DNA of 41,809 nucleotides. It comes from Pseudomonadota bacterium (GTDB lineage: Bacteria > Pseudomonadota > Gammaproteobacteria > Steroidobacterales > Steroidobacteraceae). The number at the start of each line of letters is the position of its first letter. Position 1 is the stretch's first letter. Position numbers and translations under genes: made by a program. Where the stretch lies: positions 1-41,809 of the forward strand of contig JAJYAM010000014.1 of assembly GCA_021779535.1 (NCBI GenBank), read 5' to 3'. Below the pieces are notes generated by a model that ran no database searches, was not told the DNA's origin, and worked only from the letters and a program-made list of their open reading frames with translations. This document shows, piece after piece, positions 13,493 through 16,242 of the stretch.

Positions 13493-13529
13493 CCGCGGGA
13501 TCGGCCGGATCGATCAATCCGTCCCGCGG
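13493..13529. terminator. Long hairpin between the asd block and the his operon
   Basis: CCGCGGGA (13493-13500) pairs with TCCCGCGG (13522-13529), and inside it CGGAT (13506-13510) pairs with ATCCG (13517-13521) around CGATCA, leaving a 5-nt bulge. It lies between convergent genes and covers the hisIE stop codon. There is no T tract on either side, so a bidirectional Rho-assisted role is only inferred. Confidence 0.4.
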
Positions 13530-14149
13530 ACCCCGGCATGCCGGGCCTCGAGCACGGCGACGACGTCCTCGAGACGCAGGCCGCGCGAGCGCAGCAGCAC
13601 GAGCGCGTGATAGAAGAGGTCCGCGGCTTCCTCGAGCACCTTGGCGTCACCCTCCGCGGCCGCGGCGAGCGCGAGCTCGAGTCCTTCCTCGCCGACCTTC
13701 TGCGCGATCCGCAGCGGACCCGCGGCGGCGAGGCGGGCGGTGTAGCTGCCCTCCGGTCGCGTGCGCAGCCGCGCGTCGATCAGCCGTTCGAGCGCCGGCA
13801 GAAACGCGATCCGCTCGGCCGCCGCGCGCGGCGGCGATTCGCCGAAGCAGGTCGGCGTGTTGCGGTGGCACACCGGGCCCTGCGGCCGCGCGAGCACGAG
13901 CAGCGTGTCGCGGTCGCAATCCAGCGCGATCGCGACGAGCTCGAGCGAGTGGCCCGAGGTCTCCCCCTTGGTCCACAGCCGGCCCTTGCTGCGGCTCCAG
14001 AACGTGACCCGGCCGGTGTGCTCGGTCTGCGCGAGCGCGTCGCGGTTCATGTAGCCGAGCATCAGCACCGTGCCGCGGTCCGCGTCCTGGACGACCGCGG
14101 GCAGGAGCCCCCCGCCCTTGTCCCAATCCGCCTCGTCCGCGATCGTCAT
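13514..14149 (-). CDS. hisI: HisIE, phosphoribosyl-AMP cyclohydrolase / phosphoribosyl-ATP pyrophosphohydrolase
   Basis: This bifunctional enzyme performs the second and third steps of histidine synthesis. The product is 211 aa. Residues about 1-115 are His[39 protein letters not shown], and the zinc ligands in DCDRDTLL and [10 protein letters not shown]. Residues about 118-211 are His[48 protein letters not shown]. It is the last gene of the his operon and starts in an ATGA overlap with hisF. Its stop lies within a hairpin facing the asd block. Confidence 0.96.
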
Positions 14150-14916
14150 TCCCGTCGCACCTCGATCCCTTCAGCCGCGAGCCCGGCCTTGAGTGCCGGG
14201 ATCGCGATCTGCCCCGAATGGAACACGCTCGCCGCGAGCGCCGCATCGACGTGCGCGTCGCGGAACACCTCCGCGAAGTGCGCCGCGGCGCCCGCGCCCC
14301 CGGAGGCGACCAGCGGCACGGAGCACGCGTCGCGCGCCGCGCGCAGCTGCACGAGGTCGTAGCCGCGGCGCACGCCGTCGCTCGCCATGCAGTTCAGCAC
14401 GATCTCGCCCGCGCCGCGCTCGACCGCCTCGCGGATCCAGTCGAGCGTGCGGCGATCCGCGTCGCGCGAGCGCCGCGGATCGCCGGTGTATTGCTGCACG
14501 CGGTAATCGCCGCCGGCGGTCTCGCTGTCGATCCCGACGACGACGCACTGCGAGCCGAAGCGTCGCGCGAGCGCGTCGATCAGGCCGGGCTCCGCGAGCG
14601 CCGGCGAGTTCACCGAGACCTTGTCGGCGCCCGCGGCGAGGATCGCCTCGGCGTCCGCGACGCTGCGGATCCCGCCGGCGACGCAGAACGGGATGTCGAG
14701 CAGCCGCGCGACCCGCTCGACCCAGCCGCGGTCGACCGTGCGGCCGTCCGGGCTCGCGCCGATGTCGTAGAACACGAGCTCGTCCGCGCCGTCGTCGCGA
14801 TAGCGGCCGGCGAGCGCCAGGATGTCGCCGACGTCGCGGTGATCGCGGAAGCGCACGCCCTTGACGACGCGGCCGTCGCGCACGTCGAGGCACGGGATTA
14901 TGCGTTTTGCGAGAAT
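14146..14916 (-). CDS. hisF: Imidazole glycerol phosphate synthase cyclase subunit, apparent ATT start
   Basis: HisF uses ammonia from HisH to make imidazole glycerol phosphate and AICAR. The TIM barrel is complete: [20 protein letters not shown] with the catalytic first Asp, [49 protein letters not shown] with the second Asp, and PLVASGGAG. The conserved N-terminal Met falls on an ATT (14916-14914). No ATG, GTG or TTG lies in frame for about 40 codons upstream, and the first GTG downstream would remove the catalytic Asp. GGGGAG (14930-14925) stands 8 nt before the ATT. The resulting 256 aa is the family length. It overlaps hisA by 19 nt and hisIE by 4. Confidence 0.93.
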
Positions 14917-15638
14917 CGGCGGATCTCCCCGTCGTCGATCGTTCCCTCGAGCAGCGCACGGCCGCTGATCGCCGCGGCGACGCCGCTCGCCGCGAGCGCA
15001 TCGAGATCGCGCGCGTCGCGCACCCCGCCCGAGGCCTGCCACTCGATCCGCGGGAAGCGCGCGACCGCCTCGCGGTACAGCGCGAGGTTCGGTCCCGAGC
15101 GCGCGCCGTCGCGCTGCACGTCGGTGCACAGCACGTGCCGCAGCCCCGCGGCCTCGAAGCCCGCGACCGCGTCCCACAGCGACGAGTTCGATTGCCGCCG
15201 CCAGCCGTGGGTCGCGACCCACGGCGTGGCGTGCTCGTCGAGGCGCACGTCGAGCGCGAGCACGAGGCTCGCCGACCCGAATTCGCCGAGCCAGCCGCGC
15301 ACCGCGTCCGGGTCCGCGATCGCGGCGCTGCCGACGACGACGCGGTCGACGCCGCACTCGCGCATCGCGACCACGGCGGCACGGTCGCGGATCCCGCCGC
15401 CGACCTGCAGGCGCAGCGCGCGTTCGGCGGCGAGCTGCGCGATCAGCTCGCGGTGCGCGCGCGCCCCGTCGCGCGCGCCGTCGAGGTCGACGAGGTGCAG
15501 CCACTCCGCCCCGGCGGCGCGATACCGCTGCAGCAGGGCCGCCGGCTCGACGTCGTACGCGGTCTCGGCCGCGAAGTCCCCGCGCAGCAGGCGCACGCAA
15601 CGGCCGCCGCGCAGGTCGATCGCCGGGATCAGGCGCAT
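14898..15638 (-). CDS. hisA: HisA, ProFAR isomerase
   Basis: HisA isomerises the aminoaldose ProFAR to the ketose PRFAR. The 246-aa barrel begins [17 protein letters not shown] with the catalytic Asp in AIDL, followed by [43 protein letters not shown] with the second catalytic Asp, and [16 protein letters not shown]. The start ATG follows the hisH stop with one base between (TGAGATG). Its 3' end carries the ribosome binding site and the ATT start of hisF. Confidence 0.96.
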
Positions 15639-15639
15639 C

Positions 15640-16242
15640 TCAGCGGACTCCGAGGAAGTTCGCGAGCACGCGCGCGCCGACCGCCGCGGACCGCTCGGGA
15701 TGGAATTGCACGCCGAAGAACCGGTCCCGCTGCACGCACGCGCTGAACGGCGCGCCGTACTCGGTGGTCGCGATCGTCGCGTCCGCGACCGGGGCCGCGT
15801 AGGAGTGCACGAAGTACGCCCGGTCGCCCGCGCGCAAGCCCTCGAGCAGCGGCGAGTCCGCGCGTCGCTCGAGCGTGTTCCAGCCGATGTGCGGCACCGG
15901 ACGGTCGGGCCCGGCGCCGAGCCGCTCGACCCGCCCGGGCAGGACCCCGAGGCACGGCGTCGGCCCCTCGGCCGACGCGTCGAACAGCAGCTGCATCCCG
16001 AGGCAGATCCCGAGCACGGGCTGTGGCAGCCGCGCGATCAGCCGATCGAGCCCGCTCTCGCGCAACCGCCGCATCGCGTCCAGGGCCGCGCCGACCCCGG
16101 GCAGGATCACGTGGCTCGCGTCGCGGATCTCGGCCGGGTCCGCCGACAGCGCCGCGCGTACGCCGAGGCGCTCGAACGCGTAGACCAGCGAGGCGGTGTT
16201 CGCGCCGCCGCTCGCGACGATCACGACCGAGCGCCCGCTCAC
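15640..16242 (-). CDS. hisH: HisH, glutaminase subunit of imidazole glycerol phosphate synthase
   Basis: HisH is the class I glutamine amidotransferase that delivers ammonia to HisF. The 200-aa product shows VILPGVGAA, the nucleophile motif PVLGICLGMQLLF, AYFVHSYAAP, and FFGVQFHPERSA with the catalytic His and Glu, so the triad is complete. It starts at GTG 16242 in a GTGA overlap with hisB. Confidence 0.96.
   Translation of the reverse strand: MSGRSVVIVASGGANTASLVYAFERLGVRAALSADPAEIRDASHVILPGVGAALDAMRRLRESGLDRLIARLPQPVLGICLGMQLLFDASAEGPTPCLGVLPGRVERLGAGPDRPVPHIGWNTLERRADSPLLEGLRAGDRAYFVHSYAAPVADATIATTEYGAPFSACVQRDRFFGVQFHPERSAAVGARVLANFLGVR

Follow-up and report, generated by a model that had tools for sequence, protein, structure and literature searches.

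A conserved AUU start codon of hisF within the 3' end of hisA in the Steroidobacterales, probably shaped by an overlapping HisA codon

The hisA-hisF junction

The stretch of DNA analyzed here, hereafter called the window, comprises 41,809 nucleotides (positions 1 to 41,809 of contig JAJYAM010000014.1, assembly GCA_021779535.1) from a member of the Steroidobacteraceae, order Steroidobacterales, in the Gammaproteobacteria. Its minus strand carries the genes hisH, hisA, hisF and hisIE (Table 1). The best family for the HisA product was TIGR00007, with a score of 225.5 bits that lies 3.5 bits below the cut-off of 228.95. Solved HisA chains, which we take to be structures of the S. enterica type, matched the window HisA at 1.9e-67.

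Direct reading places the hisF initiation codon, ATT (AUU), at 14916-14914 of the minus strand, within the 3' end of hisA, and from position 14916 the codons run ATT CTC GCA AAA CGC ATA ATC CCG TGC CTC GAC GTG. The 256 residues read from this ATT matched NCBIfam family TIGR00735 at 325.5 bits (cut-off 294.55) over profile positions 2-254 of 254, a full-length match above the equivalog cut-off. In a phmmer alignment, residue 2 of the window HisF paired with residue 2 of HisF 1thf. Both alignments agree with an earlier sequence-only reading of this DNA, which had the family match begin at residue 2. HisF matches at E<=1e-60 were found at a single place in the window genome. The nearest in-frame canonical codons are a GTG 42 codons upstream, as expected from the earlier claim that no ATG, GTG or TTG stands within about 40 codons, and a GTG at codon 12, just past Asp11. 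Initiation at the latter would indeed delete the first Asp, as that reading had pointed out; Asp11 is presumably the catalytic Asp.

Table 1. Features of the hisA-hisF region of the window
Feature	Position	Strand	Basis or remark
hisIE, sharing ATGA with the hisF stop	13514..14149	-	NF002747, 254.7 bits
hisF coding sequence, 256 codons and stop TGA	14146..14916	-	TIGR00735, 325.5 bits
hisF initiation codon ATT (AUU)	14914..14916	-	Read directly; ATT/ATA in 176/207 readable starts of the order
hisA-hisF overlap, 19 nt	14898..14916	-	Read directly; 19 nt in 148/174 ATT/ATA loci
HisA Phe242 codon TTC, bases 1-2 being hisF start bases 2-3	14913..14915	-	Read directly
HisA Arg241 codon CGA, third base being the A of the hisF ATT	14916..14918	-	Read directly
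GGGGAG, Shine-Dalgarno-like, 8 nt upstream of the ATT	14925..14930	-	Read directly
hisA coding sequence, 246 codons and stop TAA (14900-14898)	14898..15638	-	TIGR00007, 225.5 bits
hisH, partner subunit of HisF	15640..16242	-	TIGR01855, 207.2 bits

Start codons of hisF across the order

HisF was searched for at E<=1e-60 in overlapping sets of genomes from the genus (19 of 23 matched), the family (85 of 100), the order (129 of 147) and the class (83 of 185, with three of the 83 matches belonging to the order). For the order, 209 distinct genomes had a HisF match and 207 had a readable start, two (G082 and G228) being dropped where the contig edge came before the start. The start codon was ATT in 160 of these 207, ATA in 16, GTT in 2, ATG in 17 and GTG in 9, and in the remaining 3 a canonical codon lay a few codons upstream. 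ATT or ATA starts were observed in 54 of the 61 genera, of which seven had canonical starts only and three were mixed; of the 15 families that yielded a readable start, 10 contained ATT or ATA. Outside the order, none of the 28 hisF loci read from 80 class matches started with ATT, ATA or ATC. Among the best 80 named loci, 76 were read and 13 had ATT or ATA, all of them from metagenome bins that were untyped or titled Steroidobacteraceae or Chromatiales. With ATT or ATA at 176 of the 207 readable hisA-hisF junctions of the order, the proposal that hisF starts at ATT inside the end of hisA is borne out by conservation as well as by direct reading, and the comparison of these genomes confirms that the AUU start is real and conserved over most of the order.

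Detailed tallies were made for 174 of the 176 ATT/ATA genomes; G019, G139 and G090 were read by hand. No ATG, GTG or TTG occurred within 20 codons upstream in 172 of the 174 loci, the exceptions being G174, with a TTG 9 codons upstream, and G087, with a GTG 17 codons upstream. An in-frame stop was reached upstream before any of these codons in 86 loci, at a distance of 1 to 6 codons in 29 of them and of exactly 5 codons in 18. Codons 2-12 were free of canonical start codons in 115 loci, and both properties were combined in 61. The hisF loci thus show what marks a genuine non-canonical start, a conserved codon at the family start with no canonical alternative. The start of G174 (locus L166) is less certain than the others.

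The GGGGAG noted earlier 8 nt upstream of the start is present in the window, and at the level of the order its spacing is retained while the commonest match is AGGAG, which stands exactly 8 nt before the start in 95 of the 174 loci. Shine-Dalgarno matches of at least 4 nt were found upstream in 172 loci and of at least 5 nt in 130; as raw match counts, these figures fit a properly spaced ribosome-binding element. The first base of the hisF ATT also occupies the wobble position of a HisA codon. In the loci whose HisA has Phe or Tyr on the start, this base was A in 174 of 176; that set was used for the count because the 174 loci had been selected for ATT or ATA. From codon usage in the 3' part of hisA, an A at that wobble base was expected in 23.0 of 174.

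These data bear directly on whether the ATT could be mistaken. A sequencing or assembly error at 14914-14916 might be suspected since the window comes from a 127-contig assembly, and this was excluded by conservation: ATT is shared by 160 of the 207 readable genomes, and the ATT/ATA set includes seven assemblies recorded as a single contig (G031, G049, G141, G174, G178, G186 and G193). We give an error virtually no credence. It is extremely improbable that the true start lies elsewhere, whether in an N-terminal extension, at the downstream GTG or in a HisA-HisF fusion made by -1 frameshifting, and these three candidates were rejected on the upstream stops, the lack of alternative codons and the loss of Asp11. 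The two loci with a canonical codon within 20 codons upstream would allow an extension, which is no general answer because 86 of the 174 loci meet a stop first. The GTG at codon 12 seen in G000 would cost Asp11 and has no canonical counterpart within codons 2-12 in the 115 loci mentioned above. A fusion is opposed by the overlap, in which no tandem slippery heptamer was seen by eye, and by a ribosome-binding element that is spaced to the AUN codon.

The HisA codon on the hisF start

All 174 ATT/ATA loci that were tallied overlap hisA, by 19 nt in 148 and by 7, 31, 37, 52 or 55 nt in the other 26. Bases 2-3 of the hisF start are bases 1-2 of the HisA codon located eleven residues past a GKALLE-like motif. 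Where this codon encodes Phe, the hisF start was ATT in 158 loci and GTT in 2; where it encodes Tyr, the start was ATA in 16. Trp was accompanied by ATG in 2 loci, and Cys by ATG in 1 and GTG in 9. The aromatic codons on the start were TTC for Phe and TAC for Tyr. The pairing of ATT with Phe and of ATA with Tyr is in part dictated by the genetic code, and the independent part consists of loci in which the HisA position is off the start and of the missing ATC.

Taken in a fixed register, the HisA position did not coincide with the hisF start in 16 loci, where the residue was Phe in 5, Trp in 7 and Tyr in 2. Not one of the 16 used ATT or ATA for hisF, and the start was canonical in all of them. 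One, G121 (family f8), is really a HisA one residue shorter with Cys on the start, and in G127 HisA has Arg followed by Phe. As read from these sequences, the start codon is linked to the HisA residue and is canonical where the two genes are not in conflict. An ATC start, which would place Ser in HisA, occurred at none of the 207 readable hisF starts of the order.

A comparison is provided by infC, whose AUU or AUC start mediates autoregulation by IF3. In the 26 genomes of the order in which infC could be read (L322-L349), the start was ATC in 19, ATA in 5 and ATT in 2, and so non-canonical in every one; the window genome (L345) has ATC. These codons were assigned from aligned reading frames in 30 genomes, two of which lacked a PF00707 match and two of which were not parsed. 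Because the infC starts are without exception ATC, ATA or ATT, the usual discrimination by IF3 is probably in force in the order. Fisher's test for ATC use in hisF against infC gave 3e-21, a value that ignores kinship among the genomes.

A single G-to-T change converts the hisF start from ATG to ATT and the HisA residue from Cys to Phe. The nearest natural contrast is G011, a genome of the window's genus with a HisF 92% identical, in which hisF starts with ATG and HisA has Cys; in each of the two genes the states differ by one base. The two GTT genomes, from one genus (f6 g57; L351, G229 and L352, G203), have lost the A of the start and kept the Phe-Leu of HisA, and their HisF is full-length apart from an insert after about residue 140. 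In family f12, all nine genomes read have GTG for hisF and Cys-Trp in HisA (L127, L128, L132, L134, L138, L139, L141, L149 and L159). The aromatic residue is absent from its place in G011 and f12, which have Cys, and in f14/G127, which has Arg; the HisA of G090 ends with Cys. HisA can therefore do without the aromatic residue, as G011, f12, f14 and G090 show. In an AlphaFold2 model of HisA (mean pLDDT 95.0), Phe242 falls in the last helix, residues 236-244, whose end is predicted with low confidence (pLDDT 71 in the last block). Phylogenetically independent pairs, drawn from a quickly built tree based on partial proteins, gave three cases for the association, none against and one tied (p=0.25). 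With only 3:0 pairs the association depends on few independent events, and much of what is seen could stem from shared descent.

Origin and consequences of the AUU start

We consider it probable that the third base of the hisF start is imposed by the overlapping HisA aromatic codon and that AUU and AUA are the resulting compromise. Under this proposal a ribosome would bind the Shine-Dalgarno element inside hisA, 8 nt upstream, and initiate hisF at AUU. AUU starts use the initiator fMet-tRNA, which would decode the hisF codon as it does on infC. The C-terminal helix of HisA would keep an aromatic-Leu pair whose aromatic codon (TTC or TAC) spans bases 2-3 of the hisF start, with hisF demanding A-U and HisA demanding U for Phe or A for Tyr; AUU or AUA would satisfy both reading frames. 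HisA would accordingly need the aromatic residue, and HisF would be made less efficiently as a by-product of the compromise. Weak initiation from AUU is likely in view of the E. coli value quoted below. A low output of hisF is plausible, as is sensitivity to the level of IF3, from the precedents of infC and sigR; the earlier reading had suggested both, and the HisA side of the conflict is an addition to it. It is possible, though doubtful, that the essential hisF kept AUU or AUA across most of the order as the HisA codon forbids AUG and that this frozen compromise made histidine synthesis answer to IF3, the supply of HisF following the state of the initiation factor together with infC.

A regulatory origin, in which AUU is retained to hold hisF low and sensitive to IF3 as in infC and sigR with the HisA residue secondary, seems unlikely. 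In its favor, infC is non-canonical in all readable genomes and IF3 discrimination is likely active, and the 130 loci with a Shine-Dalgarno match of at least 5 nt suggest compensation for a weak codon. An IF3-type start should accept any discriminated codon, AUC included, and hisF has ATC at 0 of 207 starts against 19 of 26 for infC, with kinship ignored; furthermore, hisF is canonical at all 16 off-start loci and at the loci with Trp or Cys, and we know of no physiological reason for tying histidine synthesis to IF3. The regulatory reading is weakened by these observations. Precedent for it comes from the available text of PMC5472188, according to which the conserved GTC start of Streptomyces sigR is repressed by IF3, and from PMC10666635, which in its available part cites Hecht 2017 for ATT initiation at about 0.3% of AUG in an E. 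coli assay. IF3 is described as preferring strong codon-anticodon pairs in the available part of PMC10158994. Translational coupling, in which ribosomes ending hisA re-initiate at AUU so that start strength is nearly irrelevant and AUU drifts neutrally, is very unlikely, even though every one of the 174 loci overlaps hisA and short overlaps favor termination-reinitiation (PMC10666635, available text). Such coupling would hold the upstream stop close to the next start, and here the hisA stop shifts between 7 and 55 nt into hisF with no matching movement of the ribosome-binding element or the AUN codon; close termination-reinitiation is thus not the main route. Neutral drift would also yield ATC and GTG or TTG, and a search for special RNA structure over the hisF start found none that stood out at five loci (z -0.37 to 1.59). 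Ribosomes translating hisA must still cross the hisF start site.

The proposed conflict between HisA and hisF can be set beside known systems. The infC gene resembles hisF in its conserved near-cognate AUN start and strong ribosome-binding site, found in the same genomes, and differs in having a regulatory start that is mostly ATC in this order, whereas hisF has ATT or ATA, never ATC, and shares its third base with a HisA codon. Streptomyces sigR likewise has a non-canonical start missed by annotation and conserved genus-wide, as that of hisF is order-wide, being GTC with an occasional GTT (2 of 34 species) in the available text of PMC5472188. It differs in being experimentally proven, IF3-repressed and confined to a single genus, the hisF start being known from sequence, and the available part of that source describes no conflict with an overlapping upstream gene. 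Termination-reinitiation pairs share with hisA-hisF a unidirectional overlap within an operon (PMC10666635, available text), from which the present pair departs in its long and variable overlap and in a start codon probably set by the upstream protein. In the same part of that source, ATT comes up only as something that might give rise to rare -5 overlaps. The hisA-hisF pair of E. coli and other Gammaproteobacteria (L274 and others) has the same 19-nt overlap in the same phase, with ATG and a HisA Cys-Trp (L274 ends EAIACWQNA) in place of AUU and Phe-Leu. Overlaps of this type get around the conflict by combining ATG with a Trp one residue further along, which counts against the conflict model; the GTG and Cys-Trp of family f12 are an E. 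coli-like solution.

The open PMC literature yielded no report of hisF starting at AUU, of an AUU start with IF3 in histidine biosynthesis, or of a conserved AUU start in overlapping gammaproteobacterial genes, and papers touching on hisA-hisF overlap and coupling dealt, judging by their titles, with other subjects. Non-canonical starts are known for infC and sigR, and hisF would add a conserved near-cognate start apparently imposed by the overlapping protein. If the proposal is true, the protein encoded by one gene can lock its downstream neighbor into a poor start codon over very long periods, which would be a cause of non-canonical starts other than regulation. The occurrence of ATG, ATT, ATA, GTT and GTG at one homologous start offers natural experiments on start strength and IF3 in vivo. 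Gene finders limited to ATG, GTG and TTG will misplace the hisF start here, either cutting off Asp11 or prefixing a spurious extension. In the window, a list of open reading frames restricted to these three codons contains a misleading 484-residue frame in phase with hisF, which opens at a TTG at 15600 (14146-15600, minus strand).
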